Source: an uncultured Lysobacteraceae bacterium (GTDB lineage Bacteria > Pseudomonadota > Gammaproteobacteria > Xanthomonadales > Xanthomonadaceae). Taken from it: a DNA stretch of 64,000 nt. The position numbers were made by a program, and so were the translations under genes. The number at the start of each line of letters is the position of its first letter. Positions within the stretch are counted from its first letter, which is position 1. The stretch lies in assembly GCA_902825775.1 (NCBI GenBank), contig CADECF010000010.1:101151-165150 (forward strand), in the 5' to 3' direction. The notes beneath the pieces were generated by a model. The model saw nothing but the letters and a program-made list of their open reading frames with translations, searched no databases and was not told where the DNA came from. Below are positions 7,413-63,440 of this stretch, one piece after another.

Positions 7413-7571
7413 GCTTTGTAGGGGCCGTTTTTGTGGCGGCGGCTTTCGTGGGAGCGGCTTCAGCCGCGAGCTCTTGACCTTTGCTAGCGGCTTTAAAAGC
7501 TCGCGGCTGAAGCCGCTCCCACAAAGCCGCTCCCACTAAAGCCGCTCCCACTAAAGCCGCTCCTACGAAGA
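7413..7571. repeat. REP-like repeat cluster between aminopeptidase and prmC
   Basis: A GGGAGCGGCTTCAGCCGCGA copy and its inverted partner are followed by three tandem partial copies of AAAGCCGCTCCCACT/TCCTACG. It fills most of the 269-base gap, ending 43 bases before prmC. Confidence 0.8.
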
Positions 7572-40546: not shown

Positions 40547-43512
<2,966 letters not shown>

Positions 43513-50453: not shown

Positions 50454-51253
50454 CGGTGCCTGCTTTTGTAGGGGCGGCTTTTGTGGGGACAGCTTTTGTG
50501 GGAGCGGCTTCAGCCGCGAGCTTTTCAAGACTTAAGCGTCCCACCAAAGAGCTCGCGGCTGAAGCCGCTCCCACAAAAGCCGCTCCTACAAAGAGCAGCG
50601 GAGCAAGCCCCGCTCTACAGAGCGGGGCGCTGATCGTAGCGGGACTATTGCTCGCGGCCTGCGTGCCGCAGACGGTGCGCGCGCCGTTGCCGTCGCTGTC
50701 GCCGCAGGAAATCGCAGCGGCGCAAATGCGGCAATCCGCGCACGAATCGGCCGTACGCGCCGCACCGTCGTGGACGCTGCAAGGCCGGGTCGCCGTATCC
50801 AACGGCCGCAACGGCGGCAGCGGCCGCATCGATTGGCGGCAGGATGCGGACCGGTACGAAGTCGCGCTGAGCGCGCCTGTCACCCGCCAGAGCTGGCGGC
50901 TCAGCGGCGATCGCGCTGCCGCGGAATTGGAAGGCCTGGAAGGCGGCACTCGTAGCGGAACCGATCCGCAGGCGCTGTTGCGCGAAGCCACCGCTTGGGA
51001 AATCCCGGTCGCCGCGCTGTCATCGTGGGTGCGCGGGGCGCGCGCCGACGAGGCGACATTCGGTCCGGCGACCCTGGCCTTCGGTGCCGATCGCCGGTTG
51101 GCTCGTATCGAGCAGGGCGGCTGGACCATCGATTACGCCGCCTGGCAGCCCACGGGCGACGCGGCCGCTCTGCCGCTGCGCCTCAATGCCCAGCGCGGCG
51201 AGGCCAAGGTGCGGCTGATTGTCGATAGCTGGGCGGACGCGGCCACGCCATGA
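50450..51253 (+). CDS. lolB: Outer-membrane lipoprotein receptor LolB with a repeat-derived N-terminal extension
   Basis: LolB receives lipoproteins from LolA and inserts them in the outer membrane. The mature region starts at Cys71 in [10 protein letters not shown], followed by [20 protein letters not shown] and the family-typical WRLSGD segment. The first 70 residues are abnormal: the only in-frame start upstream of the lipobox is GTG at 50450 (overlapping the TPR stop), and codons 5-57 are REP-like repeat sequence ([19 protein letters not shown]...). The frame stays open through the repeats. The gene is coupled to ispE by ATGA. Confidence 0.8.
50462..50619. repeat. REP-like repeats at the start of lolB
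   Basis: GTGGGAGCGGCTTCAGCCGC (50496) and its inverted copy (50549-50574), followed by a TCCTACA end and GAGCAAGCCCCGCTCTAC. Together they separate the lolB start codon from the lipobox. Confidence 0.85.
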
Positions 51254-55910: not shown

Positions 55911-56077
55911 TTGTAGAGCGGGCTTGCCCCGCTGCTCTTTGCTCTTCTTCTCTGTCATCCCGAGCGCAGCGAGGGATCTGCTTCGTCGACAAAGCAGATC
56001 CCTCGCTGCGCTCGGGATGACAGGCAAAGAGCAAAAGATCGCGGCTGAAGCCGCTCCCACAAAAGCCGCTCCCACAA
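55911..56077. repeat. REP-like repeat cluster between ychF and the TonB receptor
   Basis: TGTAGAGCGGGCTTGCCCCG, the CTGTCATCCCGAGCGCAGCG inverted pair, and CGCGGCTGAAGCCGCTCCCA copies stand in tandem between convergent genes. Confidence 0.8.
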
Positions 56078-56148: not shown

Positions 56149-59100
56149 TTAAAGCGCTTTTCCGCCGAACTTGTAGGTGAACTGCAGGTAGTAGCTGCGT
56201 CCCAGCGTGTCGAACCACGACACGTCGTAATAGGGATACGCGGTGTAGGTCTTGTCCCGCGGCGGCATCTTGTCGAACAGGTTGTCCACCGCCAGCGATA
56301 GCCGCATGTGGTCGGTGAAGCGGTACTGCAGCGTCGCGTTGTAGCGGTACGTGGCGGCGATGTAGGGGCTGCCGGCCTCCGGGTCCTCAGGATCGAAAAC
56401 GCCGTCGTACGAATCGGAATTGGGCAGGCGGCCGAGACGTTCGCCGTGCAGGCTCGCGGTCCAGGCGTTCTTCTCCCAGGACACCGTAGCGCTGGCCTTG
56501 GTGCGCGGGATGTCGAAGCCGCTGTTGACAGCGAATTCGTCCTCGATCACATCGCCGTCGAACTGCTGGAACGTGTGCTCGCGCACCCAGGTGTAGTTGC
56601 CGGTGAAGCGGAAATCGCCGATCCGCGTCGGCAGCCGGAAATGCGTGCTGAAATCGATGCCGCTGGTGCTTTCGCGGGCGACGTTGATCGGATTGGTGTA
56701 GATGCCGTACAGCCTGCCGTCGATGCGGGTCACGCGTGAGATGGCGTCCACGCAGGTCGGCGAATTGGGATCCACCGGCGTGCCGTCCACGCGCGAGCCG
56801 ATCCGGCAATTGGCTTCGTCCTGCAGGATGGCGTCGTTGCGCATGTCCTGCACCTGGTCGCGCATATGGATGTCGAAATAGTCCATCGACAGGTCGAAAT
56901 TCTCGCTCGGCGACCACACCAGGCCCGCGGTCCAGGAAGTGCTGGTTTCCGCATCGAGTTCGCGGTTGCCCGAACGCGTGCGGATCAGGCCCTCGTCGCC
57001 CCAACTGCAATCCTCGAACGTCTCGCCCGGTTCTTCGGTGCGGCAGCGGTAATAGTCCACGCCGGACGTCTCGTCGTTGCCCAACCCCGCATAGATGTAA
57101 TGCAGATCGGCCGCGCGGAATGCGGTGCCGTAGGAGCCGCGCACCAGCAGGCTGTCGACCGGGCGCCATTCCAGGCCGGCGCTGTAGGTGAATTTGCCGA
57201 CTTCATTGCCCGCGTAGCGATACTGGTCGTAGCGCCCGGCGGCGCTGAGGTTGAGCGTTTCGGCCAACGGCATGCGCAGTTCGCCGGCGGCCGCCCAGCG
57301 ATCGCGGCTGCCTTTGCCGTTGGAGTCTTTCCAGCTGTAGTAGTAGTACTCGAGCGCGTGCGGATCCGGATTGAGATCGTACGATTGGTTGCCGACTTCG
57401 AATACGCCGGCGAAACCCGCAGGCCCGGCCGGCATTTCGAACAGATCGGTATTGGTCACCGTGAACGACAGCGTGTCGGTGCGCGACCTCGGATGATAGG
57501 TGGTGTAGTCGGCGATCGAGTCGTATTCGGCGCGCGTGAGCGGCGTGTACAGGCGGTTCGGATCGGCGTTGAAGATCGGCAGGTCGTAAGTGGGATCTAC
57601 GCCCAGCTGCGGGCCCAGAAACAAATTGTTCGCCGCCGCCGCGACGATCTGCGGCCAGCCGATCTCGGATTTGTATTGCGAATGGCTGAACGCCGCTTCC
57701 CAGTCCCAATCCTCGCCGAACACGCCCTTGAAGCCGGTGACCACGCCGAACGTCTTCTGCTTGTTGCGGATCATGCCCTGGTCCAGGCCGCCCATTTCCT
57801 CGGGCGAAAACTGGCGCTGCCAATACTCGACGCGGTTGGTGGCCTGGTTGAAGAAATAGCCTTCCTCGTTGCCGTCGGGCGCCATGTAGCTCCAGCTGCG
57901 CACGTCGGTGAACAGTTCGACTTCGTGGTAGCCCATCTGCACTTCGGCGAACCACTCGGTATCGCCGTCGAAGGCGTAGCTCATCGAGCCGTAAGCGTTG
58001 GCGCCGCGGCGTTTGCTGATGATCGTTCCGTAGCCGATGGATTCGTCGCTGCCGCAGAAACGGCCGGGCGGATAGTCGTCGGCGACGGGGTCGTAGCGTC
58101 CCCAGTTCGGCCGGCTGGCCCGGTAGGTCGATCCTTTGTTGAGATAGGCCAGCGCATCGCAGGTGGCTTGGCCGGGATCGACGTAGTATTCGTTGTCGCC
58201 GTCGTCCGGATCCCATGCGGTCTGCAGGAATGCGCGCCGCGACGTCGCACCCGGATCGGGCGAATCCTTCGTCGAATCCTGCAGGCTGCGTTCGTAGGCC
58301 CACAGCGGTTTCTGGTCGAGCAGTTCGATGCCGTACACGGCATTGAAGGCGCCGCGCGAGAAGCCCGACGACAGGCTCAGCTTGATCGATTCGCCGCCGC
58401 CGCGTTCGGTATCGCCGTAGCGCAAATCGACGGTGGTGCCGTCGGCGTAGTCCTTGAGGATGAAGTTGACGACGCCGGAAATCGCATCCGAGCCGTACAC
58501 CGCCGACGCGCTGCCGGTCAGCACTTCGATGCGGTCGACCATGCCCAACGGAATGTTGGAGATGTCGGTGAAGTTGCTGCGGCCTTTGAACGGCATCGGA
58601 AAGTCGGCGATGCGGCGGCCGTTGACCAGGACCAGTGTGTGGTTGGGACCCAGGCCGCGCAGATCGACCTGTTCCGCGCCGGGCGAGAAATCGCCGCCGC
58701 TGAAGGATTGCTGGCTCTGGGTCTCGCCGCCGTTCTGGGTCATCGCCCGCAGTACGTCGGGAACGCTGGTGAAGCCGCTGGCCTGGATGTCCGCGGAAGT
58801 GACCACGGTTACCGGCGCCGGCCCTTCGGCCTGCGCGCGCGGAATGCGCGAGCCGGTCACCTGTACCGTTTCCAGCGTGGTCGTTTGCTGCGCGCCGGCG
58901 TCGGCCGATGCGCCGCCGGAAGCGGCGGGCGCTGCAGGCGCCGCACGAGGCGCCGCGGAGGTTTCGCTCTTCACGATCACGACCGCACCCGATGCGTCGC
59001 GCCGCGCCGCATAACCGCTGCCGCGCAACAAGCGGTCGAGCGCTTCGTCGGACGAGCGCGCGCCCTGCACGCCGGGCGTGCGCAATCCTTTCAATTGATC

Positions 59101-59268
59101 GGCGCGATAGACGAACTGCGCGCCGGATTGCTTGGCCAGCGAATCCAATGCGGAGACCAGGTCGCCGGCAGGTATATCGATCCGCGCCGGAGCGCCGGTT
59201 TGCGCATGGGCGGCCAAAGCCGCAGAACAGGCTAATGCGAGCAGCAAGACACGGAACGAACGCACCAT
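56149..59268 (-). CDS. TonB-dependent receptor with STN signalling domain
   Basis: A 1039-residue outer membrane receptor. After a signal peptide (about 1-24) comes a secretin/TonB N-terminal (STN) domain (about 27-100: IDIPAGDLVSALDSLAKQSG), an Ala/Pro/Ser linker, a TonB box (LETVQVTGSRI), a plug with VNGRRIADFPMPFKGRSN and GSASAVYGSDAISGVVNFIL, and a large barrel ending YKFGGKAL. The STN domain links it to the FecR and FecI-like proteins encoded upstream. The ligand is unknown; the neighbouring cyanophycinase and isoaspartyl peptidase suggest a peptide polymer or dipeptide. Confidence 0.92.
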   Translation of the reverse strand: MVRSFRVLLLALACSAALAAHAQTGAPARIDIPAGDLVSALDSLAKQSGAQFVYRADQLKGLRTPGVQGARSSDEALDRLLRGSGYAARRDASGAVVIVKSETSAAPRAAPAAPAASGGASADAGAQQTTTLETVQVTGSRIPRAQAEGPAPVTVVTSADIQASGFTSVPDVLRAMTQNGGETQSQQSFSGGDFSPGAEQVDLRGLGPNHTLVLVNGRRIADFPMPFKGRSNFTDISNIPLGMVDRIEVLTGSASAVYGSDAISGVVNFILKDYADGTTVDLRYGDTERGGGESIKLSLSSGFSRGAFNAVYGIELLDQKPLWAYERSLQDSTKDSPDPGATSRRAFLQTAWDPDDGDNEYYVDPGQATCDALAYLNKGSTYRASRPNWGRYDPVADDYPPGRFCGSDESIGYGTIISKRRGANAYGSMSYAFDGDTEWFAEVQMGYHEVELFTDVRSWSYMAPDGNEEGYFFNQATNRVEYWQRQFSPEEMGGLDQGMIRNKQKTFGVVTGFKGVFGEDWDWEAAFSHSQYKSEIGWPQIVAAAANNLFLGPQLGVDPTYDLPIFNADPNRLYTPLTRAEYDSIADYTTYHPRSRTDTLSFTVTNTDLFEMPAGPAGFAGVFEVGNQSYDLNPDPHALEYYYYSWKDSNGKGSRDRWAAAGELRMPLAETLNLSAAGRYDQYRYAGNEVGKFTYSAGLEWRPVDSLLVRGSYGTAFRAADLHYIYAGLGNDETSGVDYYRCRTEEPGETFEDCSWGDEGLIRTRSGNRELDAETSTSWTAGLVWSPSENFDLSMDYFDIHMRDQVQDMRNDAILQDEANCRIGSRVDGTPVDPNSPTCVDAISRVTRIDGRLYGIYTNPINVARESTSGIDFSTHFRLPTRIGDFRFTGNYTWVREHTFQQFDGDVIEDEFAVNSGFDIPRTKASATVSWEKNAWTASLHGERLGRLPNSDSYDGVFDPEDPEAGSPYIAATYRYNATLQYRFTDHMRLSLAVDNLFDKMPPRDKTYTAYPYYDVSWFDTLGRSYYLQFTYKFGGKAL

Positions 59269-59360
59269 CGGGTTCCCCTCCCCATCGGCGCACGAAACGG
59301 CACCGTATGACAGTGGGGACGAACGAGTCCGGAAAATCCCCCGTCCGAATGCGACCGGCG

Positions 59361-60419
59361 TCACTGACTGTGCAAGACGATGCGATCGTCCCGGTGCTCG
59401 GCGCGGACCGGGAAGCCCTGTTCCAGCAACCGCACGAACACATCGGTATTGGACCAGCGGAAGTTGCCGCCGACCCGCATCGCCGCGACCTGGGCATCGC
59501 CCATCACGATCTTGCGGGCGTTGTAGCGGTTGAATTCGGCCGCGGCCTCGGCCAGCGGCGTGTCGTGGAAGGCCAGGAATCCGCTGCGCCAGTTGAGCTG
59601 CAGCTCGGCCTCTTCCACCGAACCCGACCGCACCAGCACGCCGTTGCTGCTGATCAAGGCCACGCTGCCGGCGGGCAGCAGAGTGGTGGGCTGCGGATGC
59701 TGGCCCGGCGCGGCGTCGGTTTCCAGACGCACCGTGCCCTCGGTGACGACCACGCGCAGGTTCTCAGCATCGCGGCGCACCGCGAAACGCGTGCCGACGG
59801 CGACGGCGCGGCGTCCGCCGGCGCCGACCACGAACGGCCGGCTGCGGTCTTTGGCGACATCGAAAAAGGCTTCGCCCTGCTGCAGATCGATATGGCGTTC
59901 GCCGTGCGACATCGATACCAGGATGCGGCTGTCGCTGCTCAGCGTGGCGCGGGAACCGTCGGCCATCGGTATCAGGCGCAGTTCGCCGATGCCCGACTGA
60001 TATGGAGTCTGTTCGACGGCCGTGAAATAGCGCCAAGTCCATGCCGACGAAACCGCGATCAGCAGCGCCGCCGCCGTGCCGAAGTAGCGCGCCATTCGCG
60101 TACCGCGCCGCGCTGCGCGAGGCGCGAAAGCCCGTGCGGCGCTCGAAATCTCGTTAGCGGATTCGCGTTGGCTCAGGAACGGGGACGGCGCCCACTGCCC
60201 GCGCTCGGGCAGAGTGCCGTGCGGCAGCCCCGCGCCCAGCGCTTTCAACCGGTCGCTTTGTTGCCACGCGCTTTCCAAACGCAAGAAGGCGACGCGATGC
60301 GCGGTCGAAGCCGACAGCCAAGCCTCCAGACGCGCTTGGTCGCGCTCGGACCAGCGTCCGCCGTCGCGCTGCGCCAGCCAGGCCGCGGCGGTGCGTTCAA
60401 TCTGCCTGCTGTTGCTCAT
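59361..60419 (-). CDS. FecR-family transmembrane anti-sigma regulator
   Basis: A 352-residue inner membrane regulator. It has an N-terminal cytoplasmic DUF4880 region (WLAQRDGGRWSERDQARLEA), one transmembrane helix near residue 118 (YFGTAAALLIAVSSAWTW), a FecR domain (ELRLIPMADGSRATLSSDSR, GEAFFDVAKDRSRPFVVGAG) and a C-terminal STN-like DUF4974 domain. It should relay ligand binding from the receptor to the sigma factor. Its start overlaps the sigma factor end by 23 bases. The receptor gene starts 92 bases downstream. Confidence 0.9.
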   Translation of the reverse strand: MSNSRQIERTAAAWLAQRDGGRWSERDQARLEAWLSASTAHRVAFLRLESAWQQSDRLKALGAGLPHGTLPERGQWAPSPFLSQRESANEISSAARAFAPRAARRGTRMARYFGTAAALLIAVSSAWTWRYFTAVEQTPYQSGIGELRLIPMADGSRATLSSDSRILVSMSHGERHIDLQQGEAFFDVAKDRSRPFVVGAGGRRAVAVGTRFAVRRDAENLRVVVTEGTVRLETDAAPGQHPQPTTLLPAGSVALISSNGVLVRSGSVEEAELQLNWRSGFLAFHDTPLAEAAAEFNRYNARKIVMGDAQVAAMRVGGNFRWSNTDVFVRLLEQGFPVRAEHRDDRIVLHSQ

Positions 60420-60984
60420 GGCCCGTTTCCCGTCCGGCGTCCGCTGCCTGTCGCGAGCGACCGGCTTGCGCCGAATCGCCGCCGTAAAAATGCTCGGCGA
60501 TCATCCGAACGCCTTTCGCGACATGTTTCTCCACGGTCTTCTCTGTAATGCCCAGGCGCGCTGCGACTTCTTTTTGCGGCAGTTCTTCCACGCGCCGCAG
60601 CCAGACTACTTCCCGGCACCGGTCCGGAAGTCGGTCGAAGGCTTCGGCCAGCTGCCTGAGCACCTGCCGCGCGCCCAGGCGGCGCTCCGGCGAGATCTCG
60701 TCTATCAAGACGTTCATCGAGTCGAAATCACCCACTGTCTCGATCGACACCACCCGCCCGCGCCGCAGCCGGTCGGTCATCAGATGCCGCGCGGTGGCGA
60801 ACAGGAACGACTTGGGCATCGCCGGCCGCGCCTTGCCGGCGGCTTCGTAGATGCGTACGTACACTTCCTGGCGCAGATCGTGGATATCGTCGCGCTGCGG
60901 CCAGCAGCGCCGCAGATATAGCACCAGCGAATCCTCGTGGACGAGGATTTCGCGGGCGAACCAGGCGTCGAGCGACTCGTCCAT
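60397..60984 (-). CDS. FecI-like ECF sigma factor
   Basis: A 195-residue ECF sigma factor. Region 2 includes DDIHDLRQEVYVRIYEAAGK and FATARHLMTDRLRRGRVVSI; region 4 includes AFDRLPDRCREVVWLRRVEE and QKEVAARLGITEKTVEKHVA. The start is the first Met after the long open upstream frame and fits the family. It heads sigma-FecR-receptor and is divergent from the cyanophycinase gene over 144 bases. Confidence 0.9.
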   Translation of the reverse strand: MDESLDAWFAREILVHEDSLVLYLRRCWPQRDDIHDLRQEVYVRIYEAAGKARPAMPKSFLFATARHLMTDRLRRGRVVSIETVGDFDSMNVLIDEISPERRLGARQVLRQLAEAFDRLPDRCREVVWLRRVEELPQKEVAARLGITEKTVEKHVAKGVRMIAEHFYGGDSAQAGRSRQAADAGRETGHEQQQAD

Positions 60985-61128
60985 GTCCGCGACCTTACCC
61001 GATCGCGGCCGGCTGAAAAGCCATCGCGAAAATAAATTTCCGCGACGCGCGCCGGGATGGGGGATGCTGCGCTTCCACTCGTCTCGGGCTTCATGGGCCG
61101 CGCGAAAACGGGCTGGGGAGACGGAATC

Positions 61129-62151
61129 ATGGGTTTGCGGTCGAAGACATCTTTCGGATGCATCGCGTTGTACTTGGCGTTGCTCTGTTGCGCGGTCGCC
61201 TTCGCGGCGCCGAAGGCGGGAGGGCCGGGTTACCGCTATTTCGAGATCGGCGATGCGCATGCGGCACGGCCCGGCCCGACTAAGGCCGGCCTGATGCTGG
61301 TCGGCGGCGGCGACTGGCCTTACGACGCCTTCCGCTGGATGATCGAACGGGCGGGCCACGGCCGCATCGTGATCCTGCGCGCGTCGGGGACCACCGAGGC
61401 GCAGGACGAATTCTTCAAGGACATCGGCGGCATCACCGCAGCGCAGACGCTCGTCTTCAGCGATCGCCGCGCCGCCAGCGATCCGAAAGTGCTGGAGATC
61501 GTGCGCAACGCGGACGGCATCTTCCTGGCCGGCGGCGACCAGTCCAATTATGTGAACTACTGGAAGGGCACGCCGCTCAACAAGCTGCTCGATGAGCACG
61601 TCCGCGCCGGCAAGCCGATCGGCGGCACCAGCGCCGGGCTGGCGATCCTGGGCGCCTGGTCGTACGGCGCGATGGACGGCGGCAGCGTGGTGTCGGAAAC
61701 CGCGCTCAAAAATCCGATGAGTTCGGAAGTCACCCTGGTCGGCGATTTCCTGCACATGCCTTACCTGGAGAACGTGATCACGGACAGCCACTTCGGCAAA
61801 CGCGAGCGCTTGGGCCGGTTGATCGCCTTCATCGCCCGGTTGTCGAAAGAACAGGGCAGGACCGATCTGGCCGGCATCGGCGTGGACGAGTACACCGCGC
61901 TGTGCATCGACGATGCCGGCATCGGGCGGGTATTCACCGGCAATGGCGGCTATGCCTGGCTGGTGAGGCCGCAGCGGCAGGCGGACGAGTTCGGCGCGGG
62001 TCGGCCGCTGACGTTCCGTGCGGTGCCGGTGGTCGGCATCGGCACCGAGAGCGTGCTTCGTCTCCCGGGCTTTCAGGTGGAAAAACCATCGTTTTCAAAT
62101 ACTTACGATGTAGTTGGTGGGAGAATGTCGACTGCGGCAGCTACCCACTGA
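61129..62151 (+). CDS. Exported cyanophycinase-like S51 peptidase
   Basis: A 340-residue protein of the S51 family. A signal peptide (about 1-27, with a Cys-Cys before AVAFAA) marks export. The catalytic nucleophile Ser168 lies in KPIGGTSAGLAILGAW, and FLAGGDQSNYVNYW supplies the GGDQ oxyanion/substrate region near 135-138. Cyanophycinases cut the poly-Asp/Arg polymer to beta-Asp-Arg dipeptides; other S51 members cut Asp-X dipeptides. The start at 61129 has GGGAG nine bases away; an earlier in-frame ATG is at 61057. It is followed by an isoaspartyl peptidase gene. Confidence 0.85.
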   Translation: MGLRSKTSFGCIALYLALLCCAVAFAAPKAGGPGYRYFEIGDAHAARPGPTKAGLMLVGGGDWPYDAFRWMIERAGHGRIVILRASGTTEAQDEFFKDIGGITAAQTLVFSDRRAASDPKVLEIVRNADGIFLAGGDQSNYVNYWKGTPLNKLLDEHVRAGKPIGGTSAGLAILGAWSYGAMDGGSVVSETALKNPMSSEVTLVGDFLHMPYLENVITDSHFGKRERLGRLIAFIARLSKEQGRTDLAGIGVDEYTALCIDDAGIGRVFTGNGGYAWLVRPQRQADEFGAGRPLTFRAVPVVGIGTESVLRLPGFQVEKPSFSNTYDVVGGRMSTAAATH

Positions 62152-62169
62152 CCCCTACGCATTGGCTTT

Positions 62170-62250
62170 TCGTGGGAGCGGCTTGAGCCGCGAGCTTTTG
62201 CCAGATGGACGCCTACTTGAAGAGCTCGCGGCTCAAGCCGCTCCCACAAA
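62170..62250. repeat. Paired inverted REP-like repeat between the two peptidase genes
   Basis: GTGGGAGCGGCTTGAGCCGC and its inverted copy surround a 25-base spacer. They leave about 80 bases before the isoaspartyl peptidase start. Confidence 0.85.
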
Positions 62251-62276
62251 GAGCCCTCATTAGAATCGCCTTGCGG

Positions 62277-62311
62277 CGCCTGTCGCCTGTCGCCTGTCGC
62301 CTACCGCCTAC
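62277..62311 (+). repeat. Tandem 7-bp repeat upstream of the isoaspartyl peptidase
   Basis: Three copies of CGCCTGT are followed by two of CGCCTAC and a partial CGCTTTC. The tract ends seven bases before the CGGAG ribosome-binding site and 18 bases before the ATG. Slippage could change spacing from a promoter. Confidence 0.85.
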
Positions 62312-62329
62312 CGCTTTCCGGAGCCCAAA

Positions 62330-63364
62330 ATGACCCGAATCCTGCGTTCCTGCCTCGTCCTGCTGCTATGTTCGGCCCCGATGGCCTATGCCGCAGACGC
62401 GCCCAAACCTCTGCTGATCATCCACGGCGGTGCCGGCGTGGAGCGCAAGGGCATGACTCCGGAAGACGAAAAGGCCGCCCGCGCCGCGCTGGAATCGGCC
62501 CTGCGCCGCGGCCATGCCGCGCTGACCGCCGGGAAGCCCGCCTTGGAGGCGGTGATCGCGGCGATCACGACCCTTGAGGACGACCCCAACTTCAACGCCG
62601 GCAAAGGCGCCGTCTTCAACCATGACGGAAAGAATGAGCTCGACGCCTCGCTGATGGACGGCGCCACCCTGAATGCCGGCGCCGTGGCCGGCGTGCATCG
62701 GGTCAAGAACCCGATCCTGCTGGCCCGGGCCGTGATGGAGCGCTCCAAGCACGTGATGATGGTGGGCGACGGCGCCGAGGCCTTCGCCAAGGAACAGGGC
62801 ATCGAACTGGTCGATCCGTCCTACTTCCGCACCGAAAAGCGCTGGCAGCAGCTGCAGCAGGCGCTCAAGGAAGAAGCCGCCGGCCAGGCCCATGCCGACC
62901 TGGAGACCGCCAAGCACTTCGGCACGGTCGGCGCGGCCGCCCTGGATGCCCAGGGCCATCTTGCGGCCGGGACCTCGACCGGCGGCATGACCAATAAGCG
63001 CTACGGCCGGGTCGGGGACTCGCCGATCATCGGCGCCGGCACCTACGCCAACGCCAGCTGCGCGGTTTCCGGCACCGGTTGGGGCGAGTTCTACATCCGC
63101 ACCGCGGCCGCCCACGACATCTGCGCCCGGGTGGCTTACCTGAAGGAAACCCCGGCCCAGGCCGGCGAGGCGGTCATCGACCAGGTCATCCCCAAGCTGG
63201 GCGGGGATGGCGGGGCGATCGTGCTCGGCGCCGACGGCAGCGCGGCCTTCCCGTTCAATACCGAGGGCATGTTCCGGGGCTGGATCGGCGCCGACGGTGT
63301 GCCGCATGTGGCGATCTATTCCGACGATCCGCTGCCGATGCCGCCCGGCAAAACCGGCAAGTAG
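62330..63364 (+). CDS. Exported isoaspartyl peptidase / plant-type L-asparaginase
   Basis: A 344-residue Ntn-hydrolase with a signal peptide (about 1-21, ending AYA). The self-cleavage site GTVGAAALD gives the N-terminal nucleophile Thr199, and downstream GTSTGGMTNKRYGRVGDSPI and the segment GAGTYANASCAVSGTGWGE are standard. It should release Asp from beta-aspartyl dipeptides. Coming directly after a cyanophycinase it would finish cyanophycin breakdown to Asp and Arg. The CGGAG site lies before the ATG. A terminator follows. Confidence 0.92.
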   Translation: MTRILRSCLVLLLCSAPMAYAADAPKPLLIIHGGAGVERKGMTPEDEKAARAALESALRRGHAALTAGKPALEAVIAAITTLEDDPNFNAGKGAVFNHDGKNELDASLMDGATLNAGAVAGVHRVKNPILLARAVMERSKHVMMVGDGAEAFAKEQGIELVDPSYFRTEKRWQQLQQALKEEAAGQAHADLETAKHFGTVGAAALDAQGHLAAGTSTGGMTNKRYGRVGDSPIIGAGTYANASCAVSGTGWGEFYIRTAAAHDICARVAYLKETPAQAGEAVIDQVIPKLGGDGGAIVLGADGSAAFPFNTEGMFRGWIGADGVPHVAIYSDDPLPMPPGKTGK

Positions 63365-63388: not shown

Positions 63389-63440
63389 TCTTGTGGGAGG
63401 GGCTTCAGCCCCGACTGTCGGGGCTGAAGCCCTTCCCACC
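63389..63440. repeat. REP-like inverted repeat after the isoaspartyl peptidase
   Basis: GTGGGAGGGGCTTCAGCCCC and its near complement form a hairpin. It is a variant of the AGCGGCTTCAGCCGC family. Confidence 0.75.

Follow-up and report, generated by a model that had tools for sequence, protein, structure and literature searches.

A conserved FecI-FecR-linked cyanophycinase-like locus in Xanthomonadaceae, a probable scavenging system for a beta-aspartyl polymer

A five-gene block was analysed at positions 56149-63364 of a 64,000-nucleotide stretch of DNA (hereafter the window) from an uncultured Lysobacteraceae bacterium, contig CADECF010000010.1 of assembly GCA_902825775.1, whose source genome comprises 3.76 Mb in 26 contigs. 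An earlier note, made from the sequence alone, had described here genes for a sigma factor, a FecR and an STN-type TonB receptor that share a strand, and divergent genes for an S51 cyanophycinase-like enzyme and an isoaspartyl peptidase, which is of the Asparaginase_2 family. Open reading frames and family scans revealed all five genes as described, and the catalytic residues it named, Ser168 (in GGTSAG at residues 165-170) and Thr199, are correct when counted from starts 61129 and 62330. The genes, together with two promoter-like sites of the extracytoplasmic function (ECF) type, are arranged as follows.

56149..59268, minus strand: TonB-dependent receptor with an STN signalling domain (PF07660, PF07715, PF00593)
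59318..59342, minus strand: ECF-type promoter-like site upstream of the receptor gene, GGGGGATTTTCCGGACTCGTTCGTC (pattern match)
59361..60419, minus strand: FecR-type anti-sigma regulator, DUF4880 plus FecR (family scan)
60397..60984, minus strand: FecI-like ECF sigma factor (PF04542, PF08281 and TIGR02937 over cut-off)
61059..61083, plus strand: ECF-type promoter-like site upstream of the enzyme genes, GGGGGATGCTGCGCTTCCACTCGTC (pattern match)
61129..62151, plus strand: S51 cyanophycinase-like serine peptidase with a signal-like N-terminus (S168, H221, E254; pocket Q138, D219, S220, R225, R227, R230)
62330..63364, plus strand: Asparaginase_2 / IaaA-type isoaspartyl peptidase with a signal-like N-terminus (Thr199; family scan)

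In the family scans, the receptor scored 39.7 bits for STN, 80.9 for the plug and 135.1 for the barrel, FecR scored 66.7 bits, and the sigma factor scored 33.9 bits for region 2 and 54.2 for region 4. The FecIRA-type set of ECF sigma factor, FecR and STN receptor is thus complete in the window. Within its own genome, the sigma factor has a self-score of 426.3 bits versus 31.5 for the next best match, and the next best frame to the receptor shares 37% identity over residues 121-333 and 30% over residues 589-1034. The ATG at 59268 is the more likely receptor start compared with 59364, and the sigma factor probably starts near 60984, giving a 23-base overlap with FecR. For the S51 gene, start 61129 is preferred over 61057, because the promoter-like site occupies 61059-61083.

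In a survey across Xanthomonadaceae, as the earlier note had proposed, the genes of the block proved to be conserved together. The S51 protein was searched against 198 genomes of the family, the window's included, of which 89 matched; 65 genomes including the window's carry a close form of the enzyme, termed type W (about 45% identity or more). By S51 identity, the closest named loci are those of Luteimonas cucumeris (86%) and L. gilva (84%). The surroundings of the type-W gene in the other 64 genomes (L052-L115) provide the locus counts given below. The Asparaginase_2 gene directly follows the S51 gene on the same strand in 64/64 loci, and in 43 of them both enzymes lie in one open frame of at least 650 residues, that is, a fused enzyme. 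Matches to both sigma factor and FecR are present at 52/64 loci and a receptor frame of at least 700 residues at 59/64; in L055, L093, L104 and L097 the sequence around the locus ends before or inside the receptor gene. Since it recurs across the family, the five-gene arrangement is not a chance one.

Outside the family, L160 from the same order has all five genes, and the receptor and both enzymes occur without adjacent sigma and FecR genes in L161 and L162 from outside the class and in Novosphingobium (L132), with the enzymes in a shared frame in L132 and L162. Among 398 sampled genomes from the phylum, 27 gave any S51 match, mostly weak. Clustering of the neighbours of 66 loci revealed no sixth block gene among the 40 clusters listed; part of the loci are flanked by ychF, in 19 cases, or by translation genes, in about 11-12.

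The presence of the STN domain was compared with that of the sigma factor and FecR at 66 loci (the 64 plus L132 and L133), using a blastp match with an E value below 0.001 to the STN region of the window's receptor. Among the 61 loci with a readable receptor, 48 have both STN and the sigma-FecR pair, 13 have neither and none is discordant. This co-variation is what surface signalling predicts. The 13 loci lacking both stem from few lineages and represent a handful of events.

Moreover, in sigma-bearing loci the receptor gene and the enzyme unit share an upstream sequence, GGGGGA followed after about 13 bases by TTCGTC or CTCGTC. Where the sigma gene is present (window included), a loose pattern (GGG[GA][ACT], 11-14 bases, [TC]TCGTC) occurs upstream of 51/53 enzyme units and 48/49 receptor genes, and a strict one (GGG[GA]A, 11-14 bases, TTCGTC) upstream of 44/53 and 28/49, respectively. 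In loci without the sigma gene, both forms occur at 0/11 receptor genes and 1/12 enzyme units. Apart from the sites at 59318-59342 and 61059-61083, the 64 kb of the window contain no exact match, and in four genomes of the genus this block accounts for 8 of the 12 sites of GGGGGA-N13-YTCGTC. The promoter-like site is thus linked to this sigma factor by presence and absence, with binding by the sigma factor putative, and the shared promoter type probably turns on uptake and digestion at the same time. Taken with the STN co-variation, this promoter-like sequence shared by receptor and enzymes supports the claim that the block has its own surface signalling. The single sigma-less enzyme unit with the pattern seems to be L091, a locus without a sigma or FecR match where only C-terminal remnants of the receptor are left and the fused enzyme and promoter-like site persist, apparently a decaying system.

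The S51 enzyme belongs to its family with 40.7 bits against PF03575 (cut-off 23.9). Compared with solved structures by sequence, it matches three cyanophycinases best (E values 1e-10 to 1e-9), with PepE behind (E value 0.004). In the cyanophycinase CphB, Gln101, Asp172, Gln173, Arg178, Arg180 and Arg183 are critical, and the secreted CphE has Thr223 in place of Gln173 (PMC3235067; this and the other cited reports are represented here by the available portions of their text). In the type-W enzymes, the triad S168, H221 and E254 (Ser in a GxSxG context) is identical in 64/64 relatives, as are Q138, D219, R225, R227 and R230, which correspond to CphB Q101, D172, R178, R180 and R183. The sixth pocket position, residue 220 (CphB Gln173), is Thr in 52/64 and Ser in 12/64, and Ser in the window, resembling CphE and not CphB; its equivalent is Gln in 7/7 sampled enzymes linked to the cyanophycin synthetase gene cphA. 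These cyanophycinase active-site residues support the reading of the earlier note.

A hydrophobic N-terminus (mean of at least 1.6 over 12 residues within the first 50) was detected in 63/64 type-W S51 enzymes and 0/7 cphA-linked ones. Both window enzymes have hydrophobic N-termini, in agreement with the earlier note, which took both to be exported, and export of both is predicted from these N-termini. In an S51 tree of 29 rows, from which one very long-branch row was left out and in which the bootstrap had not settled, the cphA-linked enzymes separate with 100/100 support and the 14 type-W rows are not one supported clade (2 changes; a single clade in 32% of bootstrap trees). A structure model of the S51 enzyme was discarded, having been built from 11 closely related sequences with a mean predicted local distance difference test (pLDDT) score of 52.

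A second S51 class of nine genes (L116-L124; about 31-39% identity, the 36% class) has the same active-site residues, position 220 apart, with a hydrophobic N-terminus in 7/9 and the promoter pattern in 2/9; no Asparaginase_2, sigma or FecR match was found in the surroundings of these genes.

The partner enzyme scored 380.6 bits for Asparaginase_2 and fell below the NCBIfam PRK10226 equivalog cut-off (323.1 bits vs 567). The solved structure closest to it is 2zak, an entry described as an L-asparaginase precursor that we take to be E. coli IaaA. The sister structure 2ZAL is named as E. coli IaaA (PMC10206079). Residues T199, T217, R227, D230 and N89 are identical in 65/65 enzymes including the window's; the first four align with the catalytic Thr179 and the substrate-binding T197, R207 and D210 of E. 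coli IaaA.

No cphA over the family cut-off was found in the Luteimonas-like window genome. Across the family, cphA is over the cut-off in 41/198 genomes, and several of these have a weak S51 match directly beside cphA, so the storage enzymes and the type-W enzymes are separate genes. Of the 65 type-W genomes, 42 lack cphA and 23 have it elsewhere. An association between cphA and type W (23 with both, 42 with type W only, 18 with cphA only and 115 with neither; n = 198; Fisher p 0.0007) was set aside because it ignores phylogeny.

Altogether, these results suggest that the block is dedicated to scavenging a beta-aspartyl polymer, cyanophycin set free by other cells being the most probable one, a reading from sequence comparison that we consider likely. 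The block itself, its likely joint regulation and its active sites have good support, and the substrate is likely. What is taken up and in which form, where the enzymes act and how the signal passes would then be as follows. The outer-membrane receptor would bind chains or oligomers and import them using TonB energy, and its STN domain would pass a signal to FecR. FecR would release the sigma factor, which would drive transcription of both units, receptor and enzymes, from one type of promoter. Once the chain is in the periplasm, the S51 enzyme would trim beta-Asp-Arg dipeptides from it, and the Asparaginase_2 enzyme would split them into Asp and Arg for uptake by general transporters. The fusion of the dipeptidase to the chain-cutting enzyme in 43/64 loci argues that both cleavage steps take place in one compartment.

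The interpretation of the earlier note is thus supported in part; cyanophycin as the substrate, its binding by the receptor and a link to predation are putative. The note had left the receptor either importing dipeptides or sensing the polymer; the fusion disfavours dipeptide import. A dipeptide should not need a TonB receptor, since porins should pass it, and together with the fusion this makes import of chains seem likelier than import of dipeptides. In a more specific version, which we advance only tentatively, the receptor imports intact cyanophycin chains, the enzyme pair (fused in most relatives) converts them wholly to Asp and Arg in the periplasm, and FecI-FecR controls receptor and enzymes as one regulon, making the block a peptide-polymer counterpart of polysaccharide utilization loci.

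Several points weigh against the proposed scavenging of cyanophycin. The S51 enzyme scored 95.0 bits against the cyanophycinase model TIGR02069, below the cut-off of 126.6, and is therefore not filed as a certified cyanophycinase. Tyr141 and Trp145 are present in 64/64 type-W enzymes and 9/9 of the 36% class, in contrast to the cphA-linked enzymes, 7/7 of which have Leu or Ile and Leu at these positions, and this difference may reflect a different specificity; an enzyme on a Priestia plasmid keeps the Tyr and not the Trp. The pocket residues alone do not prove the pathway, because the nine genes of the 36% class keep them, position 220 apart, without a nearby Asparaginase_2 match. IaaA enzymes are promiscuous. 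The family loci share ancestry, so their counts are not independent events. As for the promoter-like sequence, the shuffled-sequence means of 0.19 or less come from shuffles that preserve base content only, and the pattern was derived from the same sequences on which it was counted; the fair tests are therefore the sigma-less loci and the genome scans. GGGGGA-N13-YTCGTC occurs in 112/198 family genomes and a reversed control matches in many too, indicating that the pattern has a background, and a loose match lies 127 bases before 1/7 cphA-linked S51 genes (L128), probably by chance.

The cut-off result fits a general salvage of isoaspartyl peptides, in which the receptor would import peptides of aged proteins and the enzymes would handle Asp-X and isoAsp-X bonds, with cyanophycin not the main substrate; the S51 family also includes aspartyl dipeptidases. 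We regard this as unlikely, since the reported pocket arginines of cyanophycinase are kept in 64/64 relatives, the structure matches place cyanophycinases ahead of PepE, and the same two families are paired in cphA operons: on plasmids of Deinococcus, Mesorhizobium and Sphingobium, an Asparaginase_2-type gene lies between cphA and the cyanophycinase gene. Similarly improbable is that the S51 enzyme acts outside the cell after secretion, with the receptor taking up the beta-Asp-Arg dipeptides that it sets free. CphE of Pseudomonas alcaligenes, which carries a Sec signal and was found outside the cell, offers a model for such secretion, but the fused frames imply that dipeptides are split where they are made, and the passage of dipeptides through porins again speaks against it.

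FecI-FecR-receptor sets were first described for iron, and the block could in principle be an iron or siderophore uptake system that two peptidase genes adjoin by happenstance. This is very improbable, because enzymes and receptor have the promoter-like sequence in common and the enzymes adjoin the receptor also in 11 family loci that have a whole receptor and no sigma or FecR gene. A search for Fur boxes, a weak test using a consensus from general knowledge, gave no site clearly beyond chance: the best candidates matched 8, 11 and 9 of 19 positions and were equalled by 292, 30 and 260 of 300 shuffles. The suggestion of the earlier note that the substrate is not iron thus gains some support, iron having become less likely.

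Scavenging of cyanophycin by a clustered locus has precedents. In Citromicrobium sp. JLT1363, a TonB receptor beside a cyanophycinase gene was proposed in 2012 to take up cyanophycin (PMC3400609), likewise from genome context; that proposal concerned a single neighbourhood, and the available portion of the report names neither dipeptidase nor fusion nor signalling. The secreted putative cyanophycinase of Pseudoalteromonas tunicata may aid scavenging from lysed cells (PMC2536512). Of 52 genomes with cyanophycinase and isoaspartyl dipeptidase and no cphA1, 45 cluster the two genes (PMC10206079), and for such a cyanophycin utilization locus, read as scavenging, that paper cites Ben Hania et al. 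The window genome likewise has its cyanophycinase-like and isoaspartyl peptidase genes clustered, with no cphA over cut-off. Compared with that locus, both enzymes here look exported, are often fused and are accompanied by a TonB receptor and sigma-FecR genes, and the present block has no inner-membrane transporter gene. With CphE of Pseudomonas (PMC3235067) the S51 enzyme shares a signal-like N-terminus, the Ser-His-Glu triad, the pocket residues and the hydroxyl residue replacing Gln173, whereas CphE is described as a single secreted enzyme of about 45 kDa and the present system has a dipeptidase partner or fusion. In the accessible parts of the Thalassotalea and Caulobacter literature, TonB receptors and cyanophycinase are named separately and no linkage is stated.

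The regulatory part resembles FecI-FecR-FecA in its ECF sigma factor, FecR, STN receptor and promoter-like site upstream of the receptor gene, and differs in that the likely regulon includes catabolic enzymes and the substrate is probably not iron. In Bacteroidota, SusC/SusD polysaccharide utilization loci likewise include a TonB receptor that serves a polymer, and in Dyadobacter FecR and ECF sigma genes usually accompany the SusC/SusD gene pairs (PMC11573002); FecR/sigma signalling beside polymer receptors is therefore not new. Those loci handle glycans with a SusD partner, in contrast to the presumed peptide polymer here and a set of conserved neighbours with no SusD-like gene. A literature survey of partial coverage turned up neither cyanophycin enzymes under sigma/FecR control nor a cyanophycinase fused to an isoaspartyl peptidase. 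The new elements in a cyanophycin-scavenging locus are accordingly the surface signalling and the fused enzyme; TonB uptake and scavenging clusters had been proposed earlier. If the proposed function is true, FecI-FecR-type signalling, familiar from iron uptake and present next to glycan receptors of Bacteroidota, also serves a nitrogen-rich peptide polymer, bacteria without cyanophycin synthetase have a route to feed on the nitrogen stores of others, and the locus is a source of a bifunctional enzyme that degrades cyanophycin completely. With its promoter pattern, the proposed regulon lends itself to direct testing.

A wider regulon beyond the block is not claimed: among 15 regions around off-block pattern sites, two pairs of close relatives share a site and nothing else recurs. 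In two Pseudoxanthomonas genomes (G016 and G091), a second exported-type S51 gene away from the block also has a pattern site some 45 bases ahead of it; this gene is on a different contig in G016 and roughly 130 kb distant in G091. The two genomes are closely related and together count as one event in favour of the proposed system. In two genomes without type-W S51 (G136 and G188), a conserved copy of the pattern lies some 200 bases before a frame (L203, L204), which in L204 reads like an undecaprenyl-diphosphatase.

On a plasmid of Pseudoalteromonas xiamenensis (L133:1-8906), iadA, a basic amino acid antiporter, a TonB receptor, a cyanophycinase and a second S51 gene lie together, possibly an independent assembly of the same function.

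The window block is flanked on one side by a YchF-type GTPase gene and on the other by three tRNA genes and the start of a frame resembling tuf. In addition, a repeated element, GTGGGAGSGGCTTSAGCC, occurs in the window at 62172-62247, 63393-63439, 7448-7522, 41540-41615, 50498-50574, 56043-56060 and 1876-1893. Five of these places have an inverted pair whose members start 29 to 59 bases apart, and the other two a single copy. When 2 mismatches or fewer are allowed, the element has 12 matches in the window versus 0.04 expected, and one of the pairs sits between the S51 and Asparaginase_2 genes.

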